A stretch of 64,000 nucleotides of DNA from Firmicutes bacterium HGW-Firmicutes-14 (GTDB taxonomy: Bacteria; Bacillota; Thermincolia; Thermincolales; UBA2595), in contig PHAB01000004.1 in assembly GCA_002840275.1 (NCBI GenBank), positions 124,001 through 188,000 of the forward strand. The letters run 5' to 3'. This document shows, in pieces, positions 10,995 to 23,256 of this stretch. Positions within the stretch are counted from its first letter, which is position 1; the number at the start of each line of letters is the position of its first letter. Below the pieces are notes generated by a model. It saw nothing but the letters and a program-made list of their open reading frames with translations, made no database searches and was not told the DNA's origin. Made by a program: the position numbers and the translations under genes.

Positions 10995-11023
10995 ATTATA
11001 CCAAAATTTGTCTGTATTGTTAA
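10995..11023 (-). promoter_or_regulatory. Sigma-A promoter of comFA
   Basis: Minus-strand TTAACA, 17 nt, then TATAAT preceded by TGG. Transcription would start near 10988, only a few bases before the ATG at 10985, so the mRNA would be leaderless or nearly so unless translation starts downstream. Confidence 0.7.
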
Positions 11024-11224: not shown

Positions 11225-12949
11225 TCAGCTTTTTTCAATTAAAGCGGAAACCGGTATTTCAGACCACAGGGAAACCTTGTTTTTTCCGCTCTCTTTCGAA
11301 AAATACAGGGCCCTGTCAGCCAGTTCTATAATTTCGTTAATATCCTGGGCATCCTGCGGACAGGTTGCCACACCTATGCTGACAGTAACATGGACAGGCG
11401 GCTGTTCATCGGAAACTGGGAAAAAAGCATCCTGTACCGCCCGGCGCATCCTTTCTGCCACCAGTCTGGCAGCGCCGGAATCCGTTTCCGGAAGGATGAC
11501 GGCAAATTCCTCTCCCCCGTAACGGCTCACCATATCCACCGTCCGGGTGCTTGATTTCAAAACCTGGGCTACGTTATAAAGGGCATTGTCTCCGGCCCGG
11601 TGTCCATATTTATCGTTAAACCTCTTGAAATAATCCAAATCCAGCATTATCAGGGAAAAGACCGATCCGTACCGGCGGAACCTCTCGATTTCCTCCTCCA
11701 TTTTCTTATAAAAATACCTGTGGTTGTATACCTTTGTCAAACCATCGGTAATAGCCAGTTTTTCGATCTTTTTGTATAACATGGCATTGGCCATAGCCAC
11801 AGCTGCCTGCCCGCCCAGGCTGGTCAGAATCTGTGCCTGTTTTGGACCGAAAGCATAAGGCTCCTTTTTGCCTATAGTAATCACACCTATCAATTTGTTT
11901 TCCATCAAGAGGGGGATAACCATGAGAGACCGCAAAAACTGGTTTATACCAGGATGGTTACGCAATTCAGGGTCTCTTCTGGAGTCATATACTATTTCAG
12001 GCTGCTGGGTTTTGGCCACCATCCCCACCAACCCTTCACCCAGGGGATAAGTAATACCCTTGAGCTGCTCTGCAAACGGACTCCTAATGGCGGTAGGAAC
12101 CAGCTCATTATCCTCTTCCTCGAAAAGGTATATTATCCCGGTATGGTAATTCACTACCCGTTTGGTCTCCGTCAGGATCAGGCCAAGGGTCCTGGAAAGC
12201 TCCAGGTTTGCCCCCAGGTTTTTGGCCACCTCATAAAGAGCCGAAAGTTCCTTATTGGCCGTATCCAGGTTAATGTACAGGCGGAACAGGTATTTCAGTG
12301 TCAGCAGGGGAATAAACAGCAGGATTGCCCCCAGGGTCCCCGTTTTTTCGTAAATAAGGGTCATCAGGATCCCTACAGGGGCGGCAAACATGTAAGTAAA
12401 GCAGTCCCATTTGAGGGCTGAACGCCAGAAACTGATAGTTTGGTGACGGAGGGACGGCCACAGGAACATGGTGACAAGAAGATGGTTGACAAAAAAATAG
12501 CTAAGCACGAATACTAACAGGGGAATTATATTGGGAGCCGATATCTTGTCCGCGGACAGTCCCCCGGCATAATAATAAGCCGTTGAAGCTGCAACGGCCG
12601 AAATGGTATACTGGGCACCGTTAAACAGGGTTGAACGCAGCAGGCCGTCCTTACTAAAAATACTGTTGGCAATAAATGCACTGAGTACACTTACAACAAC
12701 TGTGGTGGTGGGATCAAAACGGATAAAGGAAACAAATACAATAGCAAACCCCAGAGAAAGACTCCCCTGGGGAACTGAAACCACAAACCATTCGGCTAAG
12801 ACCCCAAGGACGACCAGTACCGCATACTCTCTCCACAAGTCGATAATAAGGGGCTTTTTATTAAGCAGGGTGACCATCATGCCATATCCGGTAAAAACTA
12901 TCAGCCATACATAAAGTCCATGCAGAAACCCTCTTCTGGCCCTAGCCAT
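11225..12949 (-). CDS. Membrane GAF-GGDEF diguanylate cyclase
   Basis: Makes cyclic di-GMP from two GTP. The 574-residue protein has an N-terminal membrane part of about six or seven segments (residues 1-215), a GAF domain ('LGEGLVGMVAKT' and 'SLMVIPLLMENKLIGVI') at about 250-400, and a GGDEF domain with the active motif GGEEF near residue 479. An RTVD inhibitory I-site lies exactly five residues before it, so product feedback is expected. ATG at 12949 is preferred (GGGGGTG upstream) over a longer reading to 13036. It follows the DUF192 gene by 86 nt with no visible terminator or convincing promoter, so it likely ends the Tad pilus operon. Confidence 0.95.
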   Translation of the reverse strand: MARARRGFLHGLYVWLIVFTGYGMMVTLLNKKPLIIDLWREYAVLVVLGVLAEWFVVSVPQGSLSLGFAIVFVSFIRFDPTTTVVVSVLSAFIANSIFSKDGLLRSTLFNGAQYTISAVAASTAYYYAGGLSADKISAPNIIPLLVFVLSYFFVNHLLVTMFLWPSLRHQTISFWRSALKWDCFTYMFAAPVGILMTLIYEKTGTLGAILLFIPLLTLKYLFRLYINLDTANKELSALYEVAKNLGANLELSRTLGLILTETKRVVNYHTGIIYLFEEEDNELVPTAIRSPFAEQLKGITYPLGEGLVGMVAKTQQPEIVYDSRRDPELRNHPGINQFLRSLMVIPLLMENKLIGVITIGKKEPYAFGPKQAQILTSLGGQAAVAMANAMLYKKIEKLAITDGLTKVYNHRYFYKKMEEEIERFRRYGSVFSLIMLDLDYFKRFNDKYGHRAGDNALYNVAQVLKSSTRTVDMVSRYGGEEFAVILPETDSGAARLVAERMRRAVQDAFFPVSDEQPPVHVTVSIGVATCPQDAQDINEIIELADRALYFSKESGKNKVSLWSEIPVSALIEKS

Positions 12950-13035
12950 ATGGTAACACCCCCTGTGCCTACCATATTCGACACAGAAATAACTATTCCC
13001 TGCAAAAATGCCAGATAAAGACAAACATTTTGTCA

Positions 13036-13389
13036 CTAAAGCATGTCAGCGGTAAGATTCAGGCGGTCATTGAGGCACGTCCCGGTTAAACGTATGGTTC
13101 CTGATGGAAGTTCGACAATAAACCCTGCCTCCCGTATCAAAGGGGAAAACCTGAAGGGAGGCATATCCTCTGTCAGGTATACCACCGTCCCTGCCCTGTC
13201 CACAAAAAGAAGGTCAATATTGAACCTCATAAAACACGAATGCACCGAGGAACACGGTACCAGGACAAGGGAGTGTCCATCTGCCAGTCCTTTTCGAAAC
13301 ATCAGCCCCTTCAGGCGCGAAAACCAGGTCCCGGCCACTTCCGCCGTATCCGCCAAAACCGTGTTCCGGGTAAGGTTAACCAGTTTCAA
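13036..13389 (-). CDS. DUF192 family protein
   Basis: A small protein of about 117 residues with the DUF192 pattern: 'TWFSRLKGLMFRKGL', 'SVHSCFMRFNIDLLFVD' and 'ILELP.G' (here VELPSGTI). The family is a compact beta fold of unknown function often found next to Tad pilus genes in Clostridia; the family fold has been compared with surface or secreted proteins, but this one has no signal peptide. I place the start at TTG 13389, with AGAGGTG 6 nt upstream; TTG 13410 and GTG 13398 are in-frame alternatives. It follows tadC directly, within the operon. Confidence 0.83.
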   Translation of the reverse strand: MKLVNLTRNTVLADTAEVAGTWFSRLKGLMFRKGLADGHSLVLVPCSSVHSCFMRFNIDLLFVDRAGTVVYLTEDMPPFRFSPLIREAGFIVELPSGTIRLTGTCLNDRLNLTADML

Positions 13390-13415
13390 ACCCTTCACCT
13401 CTGCTGCCAAATCAT

Positions 13416-14336
13416 TTACTGGAAGGTATCCATAATCTGAATTGCTGCCGGACCCAGGACCACTATGAATATAGTCGGGAAAATGAACAAAATAAGCGGT
13501 ATAAGCATTTTAATCGGGGCTTTCATCGCTTTTTCCTCTGCCCTCTGTCTCCTCTTCTGGCGCATTTGTTCCGCCTGGAGCCGGAGCACATTACCGATAC
13601 TTACACCCAGCTGGTCAGCCTGAATTACCGCCCCCACAAAGGAAATCAGGTCATCAACCCCCGACCTGCTTCCCAGGTCTCTCAGGGCATCCCTCCGGGG
13701 TTTTCCCATCTTGATTTCCTGCAACACCCTGGAGAACTCCTGGGATACGGTACCCCTTGTCTTTTCCACCACTTTTACCAGGGCTGCATCAAACCCCAGT
13801 CCGGCCTCAACACTTACTGTCAGCAGATCCAGGACATCAGGGAGGTTATCCTGGATTTCCTCCCTTCTGTTGGTTGCCTTAAGTTTAAGGTAATAATCAG
13901 GTAAAACAAAACCAACTGCGGCCCACACACCCATGCCAAGTATCACCACAGTCAGATCCCAGTTGAGGGGCAGGGAAAACAGGAGAAAACAGATGGGCAG
14001 TCCCAGGGTACACCCGTATTGAATTACCAGAAATTCGTTGGGTGTCAGATTTAGAGGGTTTCCGGCCATGGAAATTTTTTTGTGAAGGTCAACCTTTTTC
14101 TTGGCAGGCTGGGCTTTCCCCAGGTTTTTGCCCAGTTTATCCAAAACAGGCCGGATTATCCGGTCAAAGAACGGCTTGCTCAGTTCATCATTCAGGTCCT
14201 TTTTCCGCCGCAGGTTAGCCGCTATCTCCTGCATCCTCTGGGTTACAGCGAAACGTTCCTGGTTAAGGGCAAGGTATATACCATATATGACCAGGGCAAC
14301 TGTTAAAAAACTTAAAATCAGGACAGCGAAATACAT
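13416..14336 (-). CDS. tadC: Tad pilus inner-membrane platform protein TadC
   Basis: One of two type II secretion F-domain proteins forming the membrane platform from which Flp pilins are assembled. 306 residues: an N-terminal segment, a cytosolic linker, then the F domain with 'DNLPDVLDLLTVSVEAGLGFDAAL' near the centre and 'LGVSIGNVLRLQAEQMRQKRRQRAEEKA' before two C-terminal membrane segments. It follows tadB by about 14 nt and has the same domain order, so the two are ancient paralogues working as a pair. Confidence 0.93.
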   Translation of the reverse strand: MYFAVLILSFLTVALVIYGIYLALNQERFAVTQRMQEIAANLRRKKDLNDELSKPFFDRIIRPVLDKLGKNLGKAQPAKKKVDLHKKISMAGNPLNLTPNEFLVIQYGCTLGLPICFLLFSLPLNWDLTVVILGMGVWAAVGFVLPDYYLKLKATNRREEIQDNLPDVLDLLTVSVEAGLGFDAALVKVVEKTRGTVSQEFSRVLQEIKMGKPRRDALRDLGSRSGVDDLISFVGAVIQADQLGVSIGNVLRLQAEQMRQKRRQRAEEKAMKAPIKMLIPLILFIFPTIFIVVLGPAAIQIMDTFQ

Positions 14337-14350
14337 AAGGGGAACCCCCT

Positions 14351-15322
14351 TTATACTTTAATGTCGACCGTCTTTTTGATCAGGGCGATACCGATAGTCT
14401 GGGAAATGATGCCGGCAACCAGCAGGCCCCAGCCAAGCGGGGTTTTAAAAAGTGCACCGATATACTCAGGGTTGATTACTGCCAGCACCAGACCTATGAC
14501 AATCGGCAGAATCCCGACTATAATGCCGGAGACCCGCCCCTGGGCAGTGAGAGTTTTTATCTCCCCCTTTATTCTGATTCGTTCCCTGATGGTATGGGAA
14601 ATGCTGTCCAGTATTTCCGACAGGTTACCCCCAACCTGTCTCTGGATCATTACTGCGGTCATAACCAGATCCAGGTCTTCACTCTCTATCCGGTGGGTCA
14701 GGTTCATCAGCGCATCCTCGGTGGGGGTCCCCAGGTTCATCTCCCTAAGGGTCCGGTTGAATTCATCACTGATAGGGGCAGGCATTTCCCTGGAAACCAT
14801 CTCCATGGCCTGCAGAAAGCTGAAACCGGCTCTTAAGGAGTTTGACATTACTGTTAAGGAATCCCCGATCTGGGAATTAAATTTCTGTACCCTTTTAATC
14901 TTTGTCCTTTTTACGATAAACCTGGGCACAATAAAGCCGATTACCACACCGAACCATGCAACAATGGGGTTACGGGTAATCAGAAGCAAAACAAGCCCAA
15001 GGCCAACCATGAGGAGGAAATTCATCATGATGAATTCTTCCCCTCTCAGGGGTATATCGGCCTTCATCAGCTCGATCTCCGCCTTCTTGGTAAAGCTCTT
15101 GGCCGCAAATATTTTACTCGCATCCTGGAATGACGATTTCCAGTTGAAGTTTTTTAATGATTCGGCAAGACCGGACTCCCGGTTCAGTTCACCCAGTCTG
15201 GCAGTATAGGTCTTCATCCGCTCATCCAGCTCCCTTTTGCCGGTGGTTGTGGTTAGAAATATACCGTATATTAAAAGCGAAACAAACAAGAAAACCAGTA
15301 CCAGGGTTAATGACAGGTACAT
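14351..15322 (-). CDS. tadB: Tad pilus inner-membrane platform protein TadB
   Basis: 323 residues with a membrane segment at the N-terminus, a central pair, and two at the C-terminus. The F domain shows 'SLTVMSNSLRAGFSFLQAMEMV' and 'QVGGNLSEILDSISHTIRERIRIK', typical of TadB/TadC. AGGAGGG precedes the ATG. It comes between the ATPase cpaF and tadC, the standard Tad order. It is expected to contact the CpaF hexamer on the cytoplasmic side. Confidence 0.93.
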   Translation of the reverse strand: MYLSLTLVLVFLFVSLLIYGIFLTTTTGKRELDERMKTYTARLGELNRESGLAESLKNFNWKSSFQDASKIFAAKSFTKKAEIELMKADIPLRGEEFIMMNFLLMVGLGLVLLLITRNPIVAWFGVVIGFIVPRFIVKRTKIKRVQKFNSQIGDSLTVMSNSLRAGFSFLQAMEMVSREMPAPISDEFNRTLREMNLGTPTEDALMNLTHRIESEDLDLVMTAVMIQRQVGGNLSEILDSISHTIRERIRIKGEIKTLTAQGRVSGIIVGILPIVIGLVLAVINPEYIGALFKTPLGWGLLVAGIISQTIGIALIKKTVDIKV

Positions 15323-15345
15323 TTGTTTCCCTCCTGTCTATAAGT

Positions 15346-16719
15346 TTAGAAGGCCGGGGAAGAAAAAATGTCATCAGGCAGCCTGATGCCTGAGGTTTCC
15401 AGTTTGTGGAGGAACTTTGGCCTGATACCCGTAGGTTTAAACCTTCCTACCAGCTTACCGTGTTCATCCACACCTTTCTGCTCATAAACGAATATGTCCT
15501 GAAGTACTATAGTATCACCTTCCAGACCGAGAACTTCTGTTATATGGGTGATTTTCCTTGTTCCGTCCTTAAGACGGCTCTGCTGGACAATAAGGTCGAC
15601 CGCAGAAGCCATCTGTTCCCTGATTGCCCTTACCGGAAGGTCCATACCTGCCATCAGCACCATCGTTTCAAGCCTGGCCAGCATATCCCGCGGGGAGTTG
15701 GCGTGACCGGTGGTCAGGGAACCGTCATGGCCCGTATTCATTGCCTGGAGCATGTCAAGGGCTTCACCGCTCCGGACCTCACCTACAACTATCCGGTCAG
15801 GGCGCATCCGCAGGCAGTTCTTTACCAGGTCCCTTATACTAACCGCACCTTTCCCCTCGATGTTGGGCGGCCTGCTCTCCAGGGTAACAACGTGATCCTG
15901 TCTCAGCTGTATTTCTGCAGCATCTTCACATGTGACAATCCGTTCGTCATTGGGAATAAAAGATGACAGGACATTAAGGGTGGTAGTCTTCCCGGAACCG
16001 GTCCCTCCGGAAACAACAATATTTAACCTCGCCTTTACACAGGCCTCCAGAAACTTTGCCATCTCCGGAGTCAAAGAACCAAACCTGATCAGGTCCTCAA
16101 TCTGGAGCGGGTCTTTGGAGAATTTCCTGATGGTGATACACGGTCCTTTTAAAGCCAGAGGCGGGATAATGGCATTGACCCGGGAACCGTCCGGAAGGCG
16201 GGCATCCACCATAGGGGAACTCTCATCAACACGTCTACCGAGAGGTGCAACAATTTTTTCGATGATGTGCATTACATGTTCGTTATCCCGAAAAGCCACT
16301 TCTGAAAGGGTGAGTCTCCCCTTCCGTTCAATATAGACCTGGTCAGGGCTGTTGACCATGACCTCAGATACGGTGGGGTCATTCAGAAGCTGGGTAATCG
16401 GCCCAAGACCGATAACCTCATCAATAATCTCCTGGATTATCTTGGTCCGGTCAGCCCGCGGAATATAGCTTGCTTCCTTATCAAGCATGTCATTGACGAG
16501 GTTTTCTATTGTGTCATTGATTTTTTCGGTGAGGGCATCATCCCTGTCATCATCCCTCATCATTTCATCATCGAGTTCTTCAATAACCTGTTTGTGGATC
16601 TTAAGCTTCAGTTCTCTGTACGGGTCCTGTTTATGTACCGCTGCCTGCTTCTTTTCAGCCTTTTCCGCCCCTTCCGGAGTTACGGATTTTTCTTTTTCAA
16701 GCCTTTTCAGCAATGACAT
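15346..16719 (-). CDS. cpaF: Tad pilus assembly ATPase (CpaF/TadA)
   Basis: Hexameric secretion ATPase that powers Flp pilus extension. About 457 residues: a charged N-terminal helical region (residues 1-120), then the T2SSE fold with '[19 protein letters not shown]', Walker A '[15 protein letters not shown]' at roughly residue 240, the Asp/His-box segment '[21 protein letters not shown]' and '[17 protein letters not shown]'. The start is ATG 16719, with AGAGGTGG 8 nt upstream; GTG 16731 overlaps that site. It follows cpaE by about 27 nt. Confidence 0.96.
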
Positions 16720-16746
16720 GTTATCAGCCACCTCTTACCCGCAAAT

Positions 16747-17961
16747 CTATTTAAAGAGTTTTCCAAACAGGCCCTTTTTAACTTCAGCCCTGGGCTCAGG
16801 CTGGGATTTAGCCTCACCCTGCATTATCATGTGGGCCAGTTCCCTTATACTTTCGGTAATCCTTGTATTAGGGCTGGCCGTCACAAAAGGATTTCCCTTG
16901 TTTACTGATGAAATAACCGTCCTGCCGTCACTGGGGATGTGGGAAACCACCTTAAGTCCCAGGCTTTCTTCCATGTCTTCCACCTTAATGCCGATATCAC
17001 TGGAAGACCTGTTCAGCACCAGTTTAACTTTACCTTTCAGGTGCAGCGAATCAAGGACTTCCAGCCCAAGCTTTACATTCTTTATAGTTGGCAGGTCCAG
17101 AGACACGATCAGCAGGATCTGGTGACACAGGTCCAGGGCAGTAAGAGTGGTCTCATGGAACAAGGGCGGAGTATCAATGATTATGTAATCATAGCTCTGT
17201 TTAAGTATTCCCAGTATTTTTTCCACATGAGCCCCGGTAATGAGTTCAGCATATTCGGGCCTGGTCGGGCACGGCAGGACCTTTACCCCTGTGGGGTGAG
17301 TAATAAGATAACTTTCCATCAGTTCGGGATCCATCTGGTTAATATCCTGGATCAGCTCAGTGATGGTCCGTTTGGGAACCACATTGAGCAGGACCGCCAC
17401 ATCTCCGAACTGAAGGTCCAGGTCGATTATCACTACTCTCTGCCGGGTTTCTTCAGCCAGGCTCACAGCCAGGTTGGTGGCTATCGTTGTCCTGCCGACC
17501 CCTCCCTTGGTGCTGAAAATAGCCACAACCTGGGGGTCCCTCTGCAGTTCCCTTACAATCGAAGGCTCAGATAACTGCACCCGGCGCTTCTGCTCAAAGT
17601 CATAAACCTTTCTGATAGTGTCAACAAGTTCATCAGTGCTGAAGGGTTTGACCATGTATTCCCTGGCCCCGGCAACCATTGCTTTTTTCAGGTATTCCTG
17701 TTCCCCCTGGACAGACATGATAATAATAGCTGATTTAGGGCATTTGAGGGATATCTGTTCTGTTGCCGCAATACCATCCATCCCGGGCATATTGATATCC
17801 ATCAGGATAACATCGGGACTCAGCTTATCGGTCTGCCGCACAGCCGCTTCGCCGTCTGCAGCTTCTCCAATAATCATCATATCCTTCTCAAAGTAAAGCA
17901 GCCGCTTGATGTTTTCTCTTGTCTCAGTCACATCATCCACGATCAAAATTTTTATTGCCAT
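16747..17961 (-). CDS. cpaE: Receiver domain fused to CpaE/TadZ-type ATPase
   Basis: CpaE/TadZ proteins are MinD-like ATPases that place the Tad machine in the cell. This 404-residue protein begins with a receiver domain that keeps every catalytic residue: D9/D10, phospho-acceptor D55, S83 and K105. Many CpaE N-termini are degenerate receivers, so an intact one is notable. The ATPase half starts near residue 145 with 'FSTKGGVGRTTIATNLAV'; the usual second Lys of the deviant Walker A is Arg, as in many CpaE proteins. Switch II is 'IIIDTPP'. ATG 17961 is chosen (GGGAGG 7 nt upstream). No cognate kinase is adjacent except DegS at 24028. Confidence 0.93.
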   Translation of the reverse strand: MAIKILIVDDVTETRENIKRLLYFEKDMMIIGEAADGEAAVRQTDKLSPDVILMDINMPGMDGIAATEQISLKCPKSAIIIMSVQGEQEYLKKAMVAGAREYMVKPFSTDELVDTIRKVYDFEQKRRVQLSEPSIVRELQRDPQVVAIFSTKGGVGRTTIATNLAVSLAEETRQRVVIIDLDLQFGDVAVLLNVVPKRTITELIQDINQMDPELMESYLITHPTGVKVLPCPTRPEYAELITGAHVEKILGILKQSYDYIIIDTPPLFHETTLTALDLCHQILLIVSLDLPTIKNVKLGLEVLDSLHLKGKVKLVLNRSSSDIGIKVEDMEESLGLKVVSHIPSDGRTVISSVNKGNPFVTASPNTRITESIRELAHMIMQGEAKSQPEPRAEVKKGLFGKLFK

Positions 17962-17976
17962 CAATATCCCTCCCGG

Positions 17977-18723
17977 TTATCTGAGAAGCTGCAATGAATC
18001 AATAGGCGGCCTGTCCTCTTCACTCTTGTCGGCCGGAGCCCTCAGGGCTAAGTAAAGTTTTCCCCTGGAAGCCATGTGTGCCACCAACTGCATTTTTTCC
18101 GGCGGTACCGCAATGGTAACAGTGCTTCCGCCTTCCTGGGCTTTGCCCTCGCCCTCTCCTTCCGTCACACCCGGGGCAGTATAATTCTTCCCGACAGCCA
18201 GGACTTCTATATTCTGGAGAACAACATGGGTCTTGGTTTCTTTTACTGTATTAACCGTGGGGTCAGGGCTGAAGATTTCTATGTCGACAGTACCCAGCAC
18301 ATCTACCCTGTCCCCGGGGGTTAACATTCCCGAAACCCCGGTCTGTTCATTAACATCGATAGAAATAGCCCTCATACCCAGGGGCACGGTGTAAGCCAGG
18401 GTACTTCCTGAGCTCTCTTTGGGCACAAGTTTTGTCTGCAGAATCGGTTCACCGGCCTCGATTTCGGCTCTTGTGGTATAACCTATGACTTGGGACGGGT
18501 CAGTCACTGAGCTCCCGTGTACATATTCCATTGGTATATCTTTAAAGGCTACCTTCTCAGCGGTCACCAGGCTCCTGGCAGGAATTCTTACCGTAGCAAC
18601 AGCTACCTTTTTACTCTTAACATTTGTGATAGCATCCTTCACAGATTTGAGGTAAAAATTCAGCGTTACCGCTGTCAGGAGCCCACATATGAGAGCCAGC
18701 AGCAAGACCTTTTTGTTTGACAT
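17977..18723 (-). CDS. cpaB: Flp pilus assembly protein CpaB/RcpC
   Basis: 248 residues with one N-terminal membrane segment ('VLLLALICGLLTAVTLNFYL') and the extracytoplasmic SAF/RcpC fold: 'IPARSLVTAEKVAFKDIP', 'AEIEAGEPILQTKLVP', 'GMRAISIDVNEQTGVSGML' and 'PGDRVDVLGT'. In didermic systems CpaB partners the secretin; here no secretin gene is present, as expected for a monoderm Tad system, and CpaB probably acts at the peptidoglycan. AGGGGAAGG precedes the ATG. It lies between the TadG-like genes and cpaE. Confidence 0.92.
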   Translation of the reverse strand: MSNKKVLLLALICGLLTAVTLNFYLKSVKDAITNVKSKKVAVATVRIPARSLVTAEKVAFKDIPMEYVHGSSVTDPSQVIGYTTRAEIEAGEPILQTKLVPKESSGSTLAYTVPLGMRAISIDVNEQTGVSGMLTPGDRVDVLGTVDIEIFSPDPTVNTVKETKTHVVLQNIEVLAVGKNYTAPGVTEGEGEGKAQEGGSTVTIAVPPEKMQLVAHMASRGKLYLALRAPADKSEEDRPPIDSLQLLR

Positions 18724-18753
18724 TACCTTCCCCTCTTTCTGTTCAACCGGTTA

Positions 18754-19695
18754 TTATTCCGATAATCTAACACTGCTCAGATTCATATAATCAGGGTCTG
18801 TTACTGAATCATCCGTTTCCCCGGATACCGTCATGGGAACATACCTGGCCCAGACCCTGCTTTCATTGCCGTTCCCGTCAACCCGGTCCAGGAATACAGC
18901 CGCAAATCCCACAACCTCCAAAGTGTTATCCCCCGTCTCGTCATCCGGATTTAAATCCCTGTATACCGGGACAATGACCACCCTGGGGCAGCCTGGTTCA
19001 AAGTCATCCCATGTGCACCCTTCACTGCATGCATTAATCCGGTCTTCGATCCCCTGCTCCGTGGGCCCTGACTTGTTCCCCGGCACCTTGCCCAGTGTGT
19101 CTCCTGTTTCAACCGTCCCGTCATAACCGTTCTGGGTCAGTTCCCTGTATTCATTACCGCCATTGCCCTGTCCGGGGTACTTGATAACTCCCCTCCAGGG
19201 CGCCCCGTCCTGGGACCCGCCTTTTATCAGGTATTGGTTTCCGGGTGTTAGAGGGAGATATGTTTCATTAATCCCCAGGGGGATAAGTCCGTTCATTTCC
19301 CTGACCGGAGACAGCCTGGCAACGGCCCTTCCGTCAATGTTCTTACTCTCGAAACCAAGGGCCCGGGCAAAATAGAAGTCAACTGTCTTATTTACCGTTA
19401 TGGTAATCTTCCTGTTGTTCTCAGCAAAGTTAATATCCAGGTTATTCGGGTCAATGCCATTGAGCTGAGCATATTCCCGGGCCACATTCTCTGCGGCATA
19501 AGCATCCGGAAGTTCCTGGGCCCCGGCCAGGGCGGCGGCATCTGCCGCCCTGGCGAGGCGGGTGTGTTCCAGATACAGGATTCCGGTGTCTACCGCCAGG
19601 GCGACAAACCCCAGCAGTACCGTAAAGGCAACGGCAATAATAATGATAACCTGCCCTTCTTCCTCCTTGGTAAACCTGGATAATATCTTTATCAT
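18754..19695 (-). CDS. TadG-like pseudopilin, copy 1
   Basis: 313 residues. After a short charged leader the sequence EEEGQVIIIIAVAFTVLLGF gives a pilin-type hydrophobic helix, followed by the Tad_G segment 'ARAADAAALAGAQELPDA' and an extracellular domain with an acidic, Cys-containing part ('RINACSEGCTWDDFEPGC'). Such minor pseudopilins are thought to cap or prime Flp pili. ATG 19695 has AGAGGTGG 5 nt upstream. It is clearly paralogous to the next gene upstream (19748-20659), sharing layout and phrases such as 'ALAGAQELPD', 'FARALG' and 'GRAVAR'. The cysteines are unique to this copy. Confidence 0.85.
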   Translation of the reverse strand: MIKILSRFTKEEEGQVIIIIAVAFTVLLGFVALAVDTGILYLEHTRLARAADAAALAGAQELPDAYAAENVAREYAQLNGIDPNNLDINFAENNRKITITVNKTVDFYFARALGFESKNIDGRAVARLSPVREMNGLIPLGINETYLPLTPGNQYLIKGGSQDGAPWRGVIKYPGQGNGGNEYRELTQNGYDGTVETGDTLGKVPGNKSGPTEQGIEDRINACSEGCTWDDFEPGCPRVVIVPVYRDLNPDDETGDNTLEVVGFAAVFLDRVDGNGNESRVWARYVPMTVSGETDDSVTDPDYMNLSSVRLSE

Positions 19696-19747
19696 GGAAA
19701 CCACCTCTTTCGGACCGCATAACCAATCAACTTGCTTAACCGGTCAG

Positions 19748-20659
19748 TTATTCAACCAGCCGGACTGTATTCAGGTAAGACCCGGTTATGGAATCATCGC
19801 CTTCATTGGAAACAGTATGGTGAACATATTTTACATATACCTCGTTGTCATTGCCGTGTCCAAGGACCTTTTCCACGAAAACACTCACAAACCCGGTAAT
19901 TTCCACCCCATCCGTAGGCAGTGACCCCTGCACACGGTATATGGGGACCAGGGCTATCCGCCGGCTGTCAGGTGAATAGTTATCCCAGGTCTCCCCGGGA
20001 GCGCTGTCGATTCGGGTCTGGATACCCTGGATAGTGGGTCCCGTAACATTTCCGGTTTCCTTTTCCTGCACATCCCCGATGGCCACAACTCCATCATAGC
20101 CGTTCAGCGCAGATTCCCTGTAATCGTCCGACCCGCTCTGTCCGGGATACGCGATAATCCCGGTCCACCCTGTTGCAGGGCTGCCCACTTTGATAATATA
20201 CTGGTGCCCTGCCTGCAGGGGCAGCAGGCTCTCATCAATACCTATCGGCAGAAGCCCGCTTGTTCTTGATACGGGATAAATCCTGGCCACAGCCCTGCCG
20301 TTTACCGTGGAAGTATTAATTCCCAGGGCCCTGGCAAAAAACAGGTTGACCTCTTTGCTGCAGGCAACTGTTATATCCCTTGAATCAGCAGAAAAGCTGA
20401 TATTCAGGTTACCTGAAGGCAGGTTATTTCTGGCCGCATAATCAAGGGCCATTGCCCGCGCCTCAGCAGTGTCCGGAAGTTCCTGAGCGCCGGCCAGGGC
20501 TGCGGCATCCACAGCTCTGGCAAGTTTTGTATGCTCAAGGTACAGCGCCCCTATGTCGGTTGCCAGAGCGACAAAACCCATTAATACAGTAAATGCAATG
20601 GCTGTGATTATAGCGGCACTGCCATTATCTTTTGTCAAGGTACCGGCCTGTCTCCGCAT
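19748..20659 (-). CDS. TadG-like pseudopilin, copy 2
   Basis: 303 residues with the same plan as copy 1: short leader, hydrophobic helix ('SAAIITAIAFTVLMGFVAL'), 'AVDAAALAGAQELPDT', and an extracellular beta-rich domain that includes 'FFARALGINTSTVNGRAVARI' and a matching 'YPGQSG..YRE..LNGYDG' block. It lacks the four cysteines of copy 1. GGAGGG precedes the ATG. The two adjacent copies look like an old tandem duplication whose products may form a heteromeric tip complex; that is inference. Confidence 0.85.
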   Translation of the reverse strand: MRRQAGTLTKDNGSAAIITAIAFTVLMGFVALATDIGALYLEHTKLARAVDAAALAGAQELPDTAEARAMALDYAARNNLPSGNLNISFSADSRDITVACSKEVNLFFARALGINTSTVNGRAVARIYPVSRTSGLLPIGIDESLLPLQAGHQYIIKVGSPATGWTGIIAYPGQSGSDDYRESALNGYDGVVAIGDVQEKETGNVTGPTIQGIQTRIDSAPGETWDNYSPDSRRIALVPIYRVQGSLPTDGVEITGFVSVFVEKVLGHGNDNEVYVKYVHHTVSNEGDDSITGSYLNTVRLVE

Positions 20660-20663
20660 CTTA

Positions 20664-21077
20664 TCATCCCTCCACTCTCATGGTCGTCTGGGAGGTAACT
20701 ACATACGGGTCCCCTATAATGTTTCCGATCACAGGGGCAATAATATCTACCGGATAAGATACCTCAACCCCGACAGAACTGCCCCTGGCCCGGGGTCCTG
20801 CTGCCGTGGGATCAATGGTTATCGTCAGGTTGCCGGCATTCAGCTGATTGGCATTAGTCCCCAACTGAACCGCACTGATAATCTCAGCATCCGTTCCGCC
20901 GACAGCCCCTTCCCGGGCCCCTTCCCTTGACAGGTTCGTGACAATCATATAAGTATTTAGTATCCGGCCAAACTCAACAATACCAAATATCAGCATTATT
21001 AAAATAGGCAGCACCAGGGCCATTTCGACAACAGCCTGTCCGTGCTGTTTTCTGCGGAAACTTTGAAACCAAATCAT
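20664..21077 (-). CDS. tadE: TadE-like pseudopilin
   Basis: 137 residues. The leader ends RRKQHG and the mature part begins QAVVEMALVLPILIMLIFGI, with Glu at +5, so TadV should cut after the Gly. TadE proteins are minor pseudopilins needed for Flp pilus formation. The TadE motif continues 'VEFGRILNTYMIVTNLSREGAREGA'. ATG 21077 has GGGGTG 6 nt upstream, where the site overlaps the stop of tadV; a GTG at 21086 is the in-frame alternative. Translation coupling with tadV is likely. Confidence 0.92.
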   Translation of the reverse strand: MIWFQSFRRKQHGQAVVEMALVLPILIMLIFGIVEFGRILNTYMIVTNLSREGAREGAVGGTDAEIISAVQLGTNANQLNAGNLTITIDPTAAGPRARGSSVGVEVSYPVDIIAPVIGNIIGDPYVVTSQTTMRVEG

Positions 21078-21082
21078 TTTAA

Positions 21083-21607
21083 TCACCCCACCAGGTACGC
21101 CAGTAATGTACCAATGCCAATTGCCAGACCATATGGCAGGGATTCATGAAATTCCGCTTTATCCAGGCTCTTGAGAGTGTTGACTTTGAACACACTCCCG
21201 AGAAAAAAACTGAGCCAAATCCGCTTCAAAGTGGCCAGTAACCGTCCTTGTTTTACCAACAACAGAATCGCAAGAATCCCCCCTGCAATCCCGGTAGCCA
21301 GAAACGCTTTGAATGCGAACAGCGCGCCTTTAAGAGCACCGATGGCCCCCATCAGTTTTACATCTCCCGCCCCAAATCCGCCCAGGACGAAGGGGATGAA
21401 AAGAAGTCCTATTCCCGCTCCCAGCCCTTTTAGACTGAAGATAAATCCATCCATCCCTGAGAACACTGAATTCACGGCCAACCCGGCAAGCGCCGCAGGC
21501 AGGACTACCGCGTTAAGAATTTTTCGTTCTTTTATATCCGTATACACCGAAATAATCACAACTGCAGCCACTATTATGTCGGCAATGTGCACAGCCAGTA
21601 TTTTCAT
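21083..21607 (-). CDS. tadV: Prepilin peptidase TadV/CpaA
   Basis: An inner-membrane aspartic protease of about 174 residues that removes the leader of Flp pilins and TadE/TadG pseudopilins. The two catalytic aspartates are visible: D in 'SVYTDIKERKILN' near residue 30 and the GxGD motif 'GGFGAGDVKLMGAIGA' near residue 80. There are five or six membrane segments and no methylase domain, as in the short A24 peptidases of Tad systems. ATG 21607 has AAGGGTGG 5 nt upstream. It follows Flp pilin 1 by about 60 nt. Confidence 0.93.
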   Translation of the reverse strand: MKILAVHIADIIVAAVVIISVYTDIKERKILNAVVLPAALAGLAVNSVFSGMDGFIFSLKGLGAGIGLLFIPFVLGGFGAGDVKLMGAIGALKGALFAFKAFLATGIAGGILAILLLVKQGRLLATLKRIWLSFFLGSVFKVNTLKSLDKAEFHESLPYGLAIGIGTLLAYLVG

Positions 21608-21668
21608 CTGTTCCACCCTTTTTGACAACGGACCCTACTTATTGGAAGTAGGGTCCGTCACTCACTCA

Positions 21669-21830
21669 TTACAGGTTGTCACTGACGTTCTTGAATTTCT
21701 GAGCCAGCTTAGGCCCCATTACAACTAATACCGCGATAACTCCAATTACCAAAAGTGCCAGGATCAAACCATATTCAGTCATGCCCTGACCTCTCTCTTC
21801 TACCGCCAGTTTCCTGAACATTTTCAACAC
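21669..21830 (-). CDS. Flp-type IVb pilin 1
   Basis: A prepilin of 53 residues, too short for routine gene finding. Its 14-residue leader ends EERG and the mature pilin begins QGMTEYGLILALLVIGVI, with the class III cleavage rule G|xxxxEY satisfied (Glu at +5, Tyr at +6). The mature 39 residues are one hydrophobic helix plus a short polar end (KFKNVSDNL). The start is GTG 21830 with GGGGGTG 6 nt upstream; ATG 21821 is an in-frame alternative. The mature protein differs from Flp pilin 2 at a single internal position. It lies under riboswitch R1 and heads the main Tad gene block. Confidence 0.93.
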   Translation of the reverse strand: MLKMFRKLAVEERGQGMTEYGLILALLVIGVIAVLVVMGPKLAQKFKNVSDNL

Positions 21831-21909
21831 TTTGTTCACCCCCATATCATTTGATATTTATCAATCTTGTTATTATTTATAAATCTAGTCCAATATTTTA
21901 TTTGCAGGA

Positions 21910-21950
21910 AAATATAAAACCCTTCTCAACTGCTCGCCAGAGAAGGGTTT
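21910..21950 (-). terminator. R1 riboswitch terminator
   Basis: Minus-strand AAACCCTTCTC and GAGAAGGGTTT form a perfect 11-bp stem around a 12-nt loop, followed by TATATTTTCC. It lies about 20 nt after aptamer R1 and 80 nt before the Flp pilin 1 start, so it is the expression platform. The 5' arm (CCCTTC) can alternatively pair with GAAGGG at the aptamer's 3' edge (21970-21975). Confidence 0.85.
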
Positions 21951-21969
21951 ATCGCTCTATCACCACTCC

Positions 21970-22072
21970 CCCTTCGGCAGCCTGGCGATCATGACCAGTC
22001 AGCAGTTGGCTGCTGGTTTTAGACCCATGGCTTTGCGACACCGCCTTTCGACGGTTTAGCCTTTTTCGTGAG
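21970..22072 (-). ncRNA. c-di-GMP-I (GEMM-I) riboswitch R1, upstream of Flp pilin 1
   Basis: The minus strand carries the GEMM-I core in order: AAAAAGGCTAAACC, a hairpin with the GAAA tetraloop (CGTCGAAAGGCGG), the invariant GTCGCAAAGCC, GGGTCTAAAACC serving as tetraloop receptor, a CAGCAG/CTGCTG hairpin, and the closing GATCGCCAGGCTGCCGAA. This class binds cyclic di-GMP. It is followed by an intrinsic terminator and then Flp pilin 1 and the Tad genes. It resembles R2 closely along its length, pointing to duplication. Whether ligand turns expression on or off cannot be told without folding. Confidence 0.95.
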
Positions 22073-22092
22073 GTATCATTTTGTCTGATTTA

Positions 22093-22101
22093 ATTGTAAC
22101 A
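22093..22101 (-). promoter_or_regulatory. Possible extended -10 promoter before R1
   Basis: Minus-strand TGTTACAAT fits an extended -10 (TGn-TACAAT), with no good -35 element. It lies between the end of the GT-like gene and aptamer R1 and would give an independent transcript for Flp pilin 1 and the Tad genes. Weak, sequence-only call. Confidence 0.35.
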
Positions 22102-22105
22102 CAAT

Positions 22106-22612
22106 TTAACTACGGGTACATCGACCCTTGGTCCCATTTTTATATAGGACTCTGGTCCTATATAGACTTGCCCTGGAACCGTTTAGGACAGATTCAACCG
22201 TCCTGGACATGAGGCCGTAGTTCACCGGAACCGTTAGATCAAAAAAGTAAATTATTTCTCCGTGACACAGGTTAGAAATCTTCTTGGGAACTCCCCCGTC
22301 CTTGCCCGTGTTAAGAAACCTCAACTCGGGAAAAATCCCCTTAAGATGTGTGATGATTTTGGCGGTCTGATCCACAGACCCGGCATCCACAATCATAACC
22401 TCCACCGGGTATTTGCCTGTAGCTGCAAATACGGTCCGGATAATGCCTTCGATGATGTCCTGCTGGTTTTTAACCAGGAACATCAGACTCAGGCCGGGAA
22501 CTTTACTGCTGAAATCCCTTGTTCTGTACGATTCAACTACATGATGCAGAAAGATGATGATACTATATATGGCAATCAGTAGTGCGGTTACCAATAACCA
22601 ATTGCGGTACAT
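22106..22612 (-). CDS. Short membrane-anchored GT2-like protein under riboswitch control
   Basis: 168 residues: one N-terminal membrane helix (residues 5-25), then a cytosolic part that matches the first half of a family 2 glycosyltransferase: 'LSLMFLVKNQQDIIEGIIR', 'VEVMIVDAGSVDQTAKII' (the position of the usual DDGSxDxT nucleotide-binding loop) and 'CHGEIIYFFDLTVPVNYGLM'. It ends soon after, without the usual catalytic and acceptor half, so activity is doubtful. ATG 22612 has GGGTGG upstream; the longer reading to 22822 would run through the riboswitch. It lies between two Flp pilins with its own c-di-GMP riboswitch. It could modify pilin or act as a regulatory relic; function is unknown. 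Confidence 0.75.
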   Translation of the reverse strand: MYRNWLLVTALLIAIYSIIIFLHHVVESYRTRDFSSKVPGLSLMFLVKNQQDIIEGIIRTVFAATGKYPVEVMIVDAGSVDQTAKIITHLKGIFPELRFLNTGKDGGVPKKISNLCHGEIIYFFDLTVPVNYGLMSRTVESVLNGSRASLYRTRVLYKNGTKGRCTRS

Positions 22613-22695
22613 TCTACCACCCCATAAGACACGTCTCTTATATCTTATGCAGGGAAACATACCGGCGCTAATTGAATTATAATATTCCGGACAAC

Positions 22696-22734
22696 AAAAA
22701 ACCCTCCTCCAAAAACCAACCAGCCAGAGAAGGG
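22696..22734 (-). terminator. R2 riboswitch terminator
   Basis: Minus-strand CCCTTCTC and GAGGAGGG pair (one G-U) around a 17-nt loop and are followed by TTTTTTG. It is the expression platform of R2 and lies about 80 nt before the GT-like start. The 5' arm can alternatively pair with GAGAACGGG at 22744-22752 with one bulged C. Confidence 0.82.
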
Positions 22735-22750
22735 CCTCTTGTTCCCGTTC

Positions 22751-22852
22751 TCCTGCGGCAGCCTGGCAATCATGACCAGCCAGCAGTTGGCTGCCGGTTT
22801 TAGACCCATGGCTTTGCGTCACCGTTTTTCAGCGGTTTTGCCTTTTTCCGGA
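22751..22852 (-). ncRNA. c-di-GMP-I (GEMM-I) riboswitch R2, upstream of the GT-like gene
   Basis: Minus strand: AAAAAGGCAAAACC, a hairpin (CGCTGAAAAACGG), GTGACGCAAAGCC, GGGTCTAAAACC, a GGCAGCCAACTGCTGGC hairpin and GATTGCCAGGCTGCCG. All conserved GEMM-I blocks are present. Its 5' end lies only about 14 nt after the Flp pilin 2 stop codon, leaving no room for a separate promoter outside coding sequence. It therefore most likely acts as a conditional terminator inside the transcript that starts upstream of R3. Confidence 0.94.
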
Positions 22853-22865
22853 GATTTATTCCCTT

Positions 22866-23030
22866 TTAGTTTAGGTTGTCACTTACGTTCTTGAATTTCT
22901 GAGCAATCTTCGGACCCATTACAACCAGTACAGCTATAACACCGATTACGAGAAGTGCAAGTATAAGGCCATATTCGGTCATACCTTGTCCTCTTTCTTC
23001 TTTCAGGAAGTTTTTCATTAATGCCAGCAT
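22866..23030 (-). CDS. Flp-type IVb pilin 2
   Basis: A prepilin of 54 residues with a 14-residue leader ending KEERG and mature sequence QGMTEYGLILALLVIGVI, satisfying the G|xxxxEY rule for TadV. The mature part matches Flp pilin 1 except Ile for Leu at position 28 and one extra C-terminal Asn, although the DNA has many synonymous changes. GGAGGTG lies 6 nt before the ATG, a much stronger ribosome site than that of pilin 1, so this may be the major pilin. It is the first gene after promoter and riboswitch R3. Confidence 0.95.
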   Translation of the reverse strand: MLALMKNFLKEERGQGMTEYGLILALLVIGVIAVLVVMGPKIAQKFKNVSDNLN

Positions 23031-23115
23031 GTTTTTCACCTCCTCCGATTTTTTAAAACCGCACTACAGAATAGCATAAAATCAACAGAGTTCTTGGTTA
23101 GCCATCGGATAAATG

Positions 23116-23150
23116 CAAAAAACCCTTCTCCCCAAGTGCAGAGAAAGGTT
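23116..23150 (-). terminator. R3 riboswitch terminator
   Basis: Minus-strand AACCTTTCTC and GAGAAGGGTT form a 10-bp stem with one U-G pair and a 10-nt loop, followed by TTTTTTGC. It lies between aptamer R3 and Flp pilin 2. The 5' arm ACCTTTC is also complementary to GAAAGGT at the aptamer's 3' edge (23165-23171). Confidence 0.85.
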
Positions 23151-23164
23151 CAAAACGGTATAAC

Positions 23165-23256
23165 ACCTTTCGGCAGCTTGGCGATCCTAGTGATTAATCA
23201 CCGTAGACCCATAGCTTTGCGCCACCGTCTTTCAACGGTTTAGCCTTTTTCGTCGA
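23165..23256 (-). ncRNA. c-di-GMP-I (GEMM-I) riboswitch R3, upstream of Flp pilin 2
   Basis: Minus strand: AAAAAGGCTAAACC, a GAAA-capped hairpin (CGTTGAAAGACGG), GTGGCGCAAAGC, GGGTCTACGG, a GTGATTAATCAC hairpin, and GATCGCCAAGCTGCCGAAAGG. The P3 hairpin is unrelated in sequence to those of R1 and R2 while the core is kept, as expected of a functional, older copy. It is preceded at the right distance by a sigma-A promoter, so it heads the entire pilus unit. Confidence 0.94.

Follow-up and report, generated by a model that had tools for sequence, protein, structure and literature searches.

Three gene-separated c-di-GMP-I riboswitch-terminators in a Tad pilus operon: a probable riboswitch version of pyr-type stepwise attenuation

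Can a chain of riboswitch-terminators, each placed before another gene or gene group, gate a pilus operon step by step on a single transcript? This question is raised by a Tad locus in the window, which here means the whole analysed stretch of 64,000 nucleotides. A precedent for stepwise attenuation is the B. subtilis pyr operon, in which three PyrR attenuators (AR1-3) stand before pyrR, pyrP and pyrB (PMC7430163). Our results suggested that the locus is probably a riboswitch version of this arrangement, in which at least one inner switch probably has its own promoter.

Three switches and the genes between them

Exactly three Rfam matches were found in the whole 64-kb window. All of them belong to the c-di-GMP-I clan and lie on the minus strand, with E-values from 6.6e-15 to 1.7e-13; the genome of the window holds 20 RF01051 matches in all. 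The three aptamers, named R3, R2 and R1 in the order of transcription, all scored above the RF01051 gathering cut-off of 35 bits, and each is followed by a terminator hairpin (Table 1). Rfam matching and folding together gave three complete aptamer-terminator units, which agrees with the first-pass annotation in its claim of three riboswitch-terminators, one per gene or gene group. It had also placed R2 about 14 nt past the stop of pilin 2, and this was confirmed (the stop ends at 22866 and the aptamer begins at 22851).

The ligand-contact bases G20, A47 and C92 (Vc2 numbering) are present in R1, R2 and R3, and judging from these sequences c-di-GMP should be the ligand of all three. A47 has been listed among the ligand contacts, and the G20A and G20A/C92U mutants have a changed ligand (PMC7288161). 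When clan matches were ranked by E-value in cmscan, c-di-GMP-I-GGC (RF03167) was the best match for R1 and R2. A GGC-variant ligand was ruled out for these two switches, as their base 47 is A (GCAAAGCC) versus G in the RF03167 consensus (GCGAAGCC); we take the three letters of the GGC name to be positions 20, 47 and 92. The main difference of R1 and R2 from R3 is a longer aptamer P3.

Table 1. Features of the Tad locus in the window, in the order of transcription
Feature	Position	Strand	Details
Promoter P3	23280..23308	(-)	-35 TAGACA, 17-nt spacer, extended -10 TGGTAAGAT (TGgTAAGAT)
R3 c-di-GMP-I aptamer	23255-23169	(-)	RF01051, 83.2 bits, E 6.6e-15; Vc2 positions 20/47/92 = G/A/C
R3 terminator	23113..23151	(-)	T arm GAACCUUUCUCU, H arm GGAGAAGGGUUU, then U-run; hairpin -17.1 kcal/mol
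Flp pilin 2	22866..23039	(-)	PF04964, E 3e-7, slightly below cut-off; 78% identical to pilin 1
R2 c-di-GMP-I aptamer	22851-22753	(-)	RF01051, 76.1 bits; Vc2 positions 20/47/92 = G/A/C
R2 terminator	22696..22735	(-)	GCCCUUCUC / GGAGGAGGG, then U-run; about -16 kcal/mol
Small membrane-anchored GT2-like protein, 168 residues	22106..22612	(-)	PF00535, 22.2 bits, cut-off 23.3
Probable internal promoter P1	22093..22101	(-)	Extended -10 TGTTACAAT; just upstream of R1
R1 c-di-GMP-I aptamer	22070-21972	(-)	RF01051, 77.8 bits; Vc2 positions 20/47/92 = G/A/C
R1 terminator	21910..21950	(-)	AAACCCUUCUC / GAGAAGGGUUU, then U-rich tail; -17.2 kcal/mol
Flp pilin 1	21669..21845	(-)	PF04964, E 5.9e-6, below cut-off
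Strong hairpin between pilin 1 and tadV	21624..21659	(-)	Core ACCCUACUU...AAGUAGGGU; no U-run
Tad machine	13036..21604	(-)	tadV, tadE, two Tad-like, rcpC/cpaB, receiver-tadZ, tadA, tadB, tadC, DUF192
MASE9-GAF-GGDEF diguanylate cyclase	11225..12952	(-)	Last gene of the operon; GGEEF; I-site motif RTVD 5 residues before

In transcription order, the gene of a LuxR-type response regulator is followed by R3, Flp pilin 2, R2, the GT2-like gene, R1 and Flp pilin 1, and then by tadV, tadE, two Tad-like genes, rcpC, receiver-tadZ, tadA, tadB, tadC, a DUF192 gene and the MASE9-GAF-GGDEF gene. From tadV to the DUF192 gene the intergenic gaps are at most 43 nt. The GGDEF gene lies 83 nt further, and a terminator-like site (11080-11065) was found past it. 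The GGEEF and I-site motifs of its product are conserved between the window and four relatives (L066-L069). Beyond the operon, a promoter-like TTAACA-17-TATAAT with TG before the -10 (window 10995-11023) was noticed for a helicase-like gene downstream.

For the GT-like gene, a long ORF with a GTG start (22822) overlaps R2, and the ATG at 22612 was taken instead. The product is a truncated GT-A half-domain, in which no DXD motif was seen. This 168-residue protein is conserved and, as far as searched, occurs only beside Tad pilins in the family that contains Thermincola.

The strong hairpin between pilin 1 and tadV has the same core in G000, G001, G002, G006, G007 and G008, and a close variant in G009, a genome of the sister family. 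Its role may be to stabilise the mRNA and so to hold pilin at a higher level than the machine. In SRPS operons, intergenic stem-loops set stoichiometry (PMC8219983), and the hairpin after the pilin could similarly keep pilin mRNA above machine mRNA. The SRPS stem-loops are not described as ligand-controlled (PMC8219983).

Promoters and the number of transcripts

Whether the three gates work in series depends on where transcription starts. Promoter P3, upstream of R3, had a promoter-like score of 11 (shuffle p 0.013), and close counterparts, TAGACA-17-TGGTAA(A/T)AT, are present in G001 and G002 (L065, L066). With a best score of 7 (shuffle p 0.75), no promoter-like sequence was found upstream of R2. 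This switch must therefore act on read-through from R3, as the first-pass annotation had argued from its position.

The situation upstream of R1 is different. The promoter-like score there was 10 with a modest shuffle p of 0.044, and the -35 is poor. The extended -10 motif TGnTAnAAT, however, is present in 7/7 orthologous sites, at R1 itself and at its orthologs of G001 and G004-G008 (six in all), and lies 29-31 nt upstream of the aptamer. Its seven specified bases are invariant in the seven sites, most of the neighbouring bases are variable, and its distance to the aptamer is nearly equal to that of the promoter of R3. In most orthologs the motif shares sequence with the final codons of the GT-like gene, and coding may account for some of its conservation. 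Coding is not a sufficient explanation, because in R1 and in G008 the motif lies past the stop. The motif was not seen in the sister family (G009). These sequence features suggested that a second transcript probably starts at a promoter of R1, P1, and has R1 as its leader; in that case the Tad machine could be reached through fewer than three gates. The earlier claim that the machine genes pass up to three gates thus holds for transcripts that read through from R3, but not for those that would start at the conserved extended -10 before R1.

The consequence can be illustrated by a toy calculation. If each gate allows a read-through of 0.1, three gates alone bring the machine genes to 0.001 of full output. 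Adding an R1 promoter with one tenth of the strength of P3 raises the machine output to 0.011.

Two other arrangements of transcripts were weighed. In a strict series, a single promoter before R3 would feed three multiplying gates, and the machine genes would see the cube of the single read-through. The promoter-free R2, the location of all genes on the same strand and the tight spacing from tadV onward are consistent with it. We nevertheless consider it unlikely, given the extended -10 before R1 in every orthologous site and the fact that the R1 ortholog is the sole switch found in G007 and G008, where it works without a series. In the other arrangement, R1, R2 and R3 would sit mainly on their own short transcripts, with terminators insulating the genes and no functional series. 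The promoter-like sequences before R3 and R1 would suit it, but we consider it very unlikely, since R2 has no such sequence and begins only 14 nt past the end of pilin 2. The mixed arrangement, with R3 and R2 in series and R1 probably also served by its own promoter, is the one carried forward below.

Direction of switching and the proposed mechanism

To read the direction of switching, 14 switches were folded, unconstrained, up to the start of the 3' arm of the terminator. The antiterminator was the minimum-energy fold in 12 of them, including R1, R2 and R3. At full length, the best fold contained the terminator for R1 and R3, and for R2 the state with aptamer plus terminator had the same energy as the best fold. 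In R3, the predicted antiterminator pairs GAAAGGU on the 3' side of the aptamer with ACCUUUC in the T arm. Where R1 pairs GAAGGG with CCCUUC, R3 pairs GAAAGG with CCUUUC; the 3' arm of the R3 terminator keeps GAAGGG, which leaves a G-U pair there. By sequence, the change in R3 suits the antiterminator better than the terminator. In comparison with shuffles, the antiterminator complementarity was mostly not beyond chance (p 0.02 for R3, 0.12 for R2 and 0.27 for R1), a test that is weak because the strands are purine-rich or pyrimidine-rich.

Two switches of known direction were used for comparison. In the OFF switch Cd1 of C. difficile, the antiterminator overlaps the 3' strand of P1, whereas pilM, an ON switch, has the 3' strand of its aptamer built into the terminator (PMC9262584). 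The folds predicted for our locus are of the Cd1 type: an antiterminator is formed by the aptamer 3' strand and the switching strand, which is the 5' arm of the terminator, and the terminator is compatible with the aptamer. Cd1 differs in being a single switch without internal gates (PMC9262584). From this modelling, R1, R2 and R3 are likely OFF switches.

The opposite direction, in which c-di-GMP would raise Tad expression through ON switches, was also considered. The type IV pili of C. difficile, which are activated by c-di-GMP, would be a parallel. A competing hairpin in the R1-type switches, in which a strand of the aptamer P3 pairs with UGGUGAU and could be sequestered when the ligand is lacking, would suit this direction, and on its account R1 may conceivably be an ON switch. 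This hairpin was not seen in R2 or R3, however, and the overlap of the antiterminator with the 3' strand of P1 resembles Cd1 and not pilM (PMC9262584), which makes ON switching very unlikely overall.

On balance, we consider it probable that the locus carries three OFF switches of the Cd1 type, R3 and R2 in series and R1 also with its own promoter, with feedback through the cyclase. When no ligand is bound, the strand on the 3' side of the aptamer would pair with the 5' arm of the terminator, and RNA polymerase would continue. With c-di-GMP bound, the aptamer and its P1 stem would form and remove this strand, and the terminator would form. R3 would be the leader of the transcript from the conserved promoter P3 and would gate pilin 2. 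R2 would be the second gate on this transcript, so the GT-like gene would pass two gates. R1 would gate the read-through and probably its own second transcript from promoter P1, and pilin 1, the Tad machine and the diguanylate cyclase of the operon would have a single gate ahead of them on transcripts from P1 and three on transcripts from P3. The product of the last gene should be a source of c-di-GMP; with the switches taken as OFF, c-di-GMP would thus lower the transcription of the cyclase that makes it. We infer this negative feedback loop from the gene order only, and it applies if the switches are OFF. What the analysis shows directly is the sequence with its Rfam matches, the order of the genes, their conservation and the alternative folds as predicted; the ligand, the OFF direction, the use of the promoters and the read-through are, like the feedback, inferred from these.

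Conservation in relatives and relation to known systems

The first-pass annotation had suggested looking for the same order in other Peptococcaceae. The family concerned is, however, the one that holds Thermincola, which is Thermincolaceae in NCBI and lies outside the present definition of Peptococcaceae; the relatives found include MAGs labelled Thermincola. Gene-separated serial gates proved to be conserved in this family, but the order R3, pilin 2, R2, GT-like gene, R1 was found only here. In 8/8 family genomes with the locus, a switch separates the GT-like gene from the gene that follows it (a pilin; tadV in G002). One or two switches at the head of the operon were found in 6/8 of them, and G007 and G008 have the inner switch only. 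The position of R2 between pilin 2 and the GT-like gene, and with it the layout of three gates, was found among these genomes in the genome of the window only. In G009, of the sister family, a switch lies between a divergent GT-like gene and a pilin. R1 and R2 have an unusual extension of the aptamer P3 in common; since it is absent from the G001 ortholog of R1, the sequences point to copying of R1 and R2 from one another in this lineage.

When switches on the same strand at distances of 300-2500 nt were paired across nine family genomes, 11 pairs were counted, versus 0.76 expected by chance. One pair of hits in G001 (C55), spaced 2.3 kb, has unrelated genes around it and probably does not represent a serial arrangement. 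The distant GT-like hits (L079-L089) had no c-di-GMP switch. Among 20 loci around Flp pilins in the phylum, 4 had a single switch, and in none was another switch found in roughly 1.5 kb. Lone switches upstream of Flp pilin genes recurred across the phylum, so that part of the arrangement is ordinary.

The first switch carries A at Vc2 position 20 (AUAGCAAAACC) in the genus that includes G004, G005 and G006 (L067, L068, L069), and in the second switch of the operon this base is G. Riboswitches of the c-di-GMP-I class with G20A are known to bind cGAMP (PMC7288161, PMC6274999). The two gates of this genus may, as a lead from sequence, read different ligands. A further-reaching picture includes this lead: a riboswitch-only counterpart of pyr, with one long Tad transcript gated gene by gene and ending in its own diguanylate cyclase, and with a cGAMP-like first gate (A20) and a c-di-GMP second gate in that genus. 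We regard it as rather doubtful. If the single gated transcript were true, c-di-GMP would set both the level and the ratio of pilin to machine, and the late genes would respond steeply.

Like the pyr operon, the locus has three predicted attenuators, one before each of the first gene groups and perhaps on one transcript, a predicted choice between antiterminator and terminator, a likely OFF state with excess of the product, and, if the switches are OFF, feedback. The pyr-type serial anatomy is present, with attenuators before different gene groups and R1 probably with its own promoter. The sensor is different: PyrR protein with UMP in pyr, and here a predicted RNA aptamer for a second messenger. 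The pyr operon also has one constitutive promoter, whereas a second promoter before R1 is likely here. Gene-by-gene gating within an operon had been taken as not known before. The PyrR attenuators precede it (PMC7430163), but they use a protein and not a riboswitch; for serial attenuation gene by gene with riboswitches, no description was found in the literature searched, where most subscription journals are missing.

Several complete switches of the same RNA class in series are common as tandem c-di-GMP-I riboswitches, with 347 doublets and 12 triplets counted (PMC9481103) and Bc3-5 of B. thuringiensis as an example (PMC4759541); a later survey counts switches only within one intergenic region (PMC12452182). 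These tandems are grouped upstream of a single ORF, whereas here genes lie between the switches. The surveyed definition (at least two switches in one intergenic region before one ORF) does not cover the locus, which has a gene between each pair, and surveys of tandem riboswitches that share an intergenic region or ORF would miss gene-separated switches. The locus shows that gene-separated serial arrangements exist, are conserved across the family and have a parallel in another operon. With it, one could test whether a second messenger sets the stoichiometry within a pilus operon whose last gene is predicted to make that messenger.

Two further observations were made in the relatives. The pilin-tadV gap of L067 (4575-4640) and L068 (4500-4560) contains the 3' half of an apparently decayed third c-di-GMP-I switch. 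The second operon of the family (L092-L095) consists of galU, two tandem switches, a surface-type gene, a third switch and another conserved gene.
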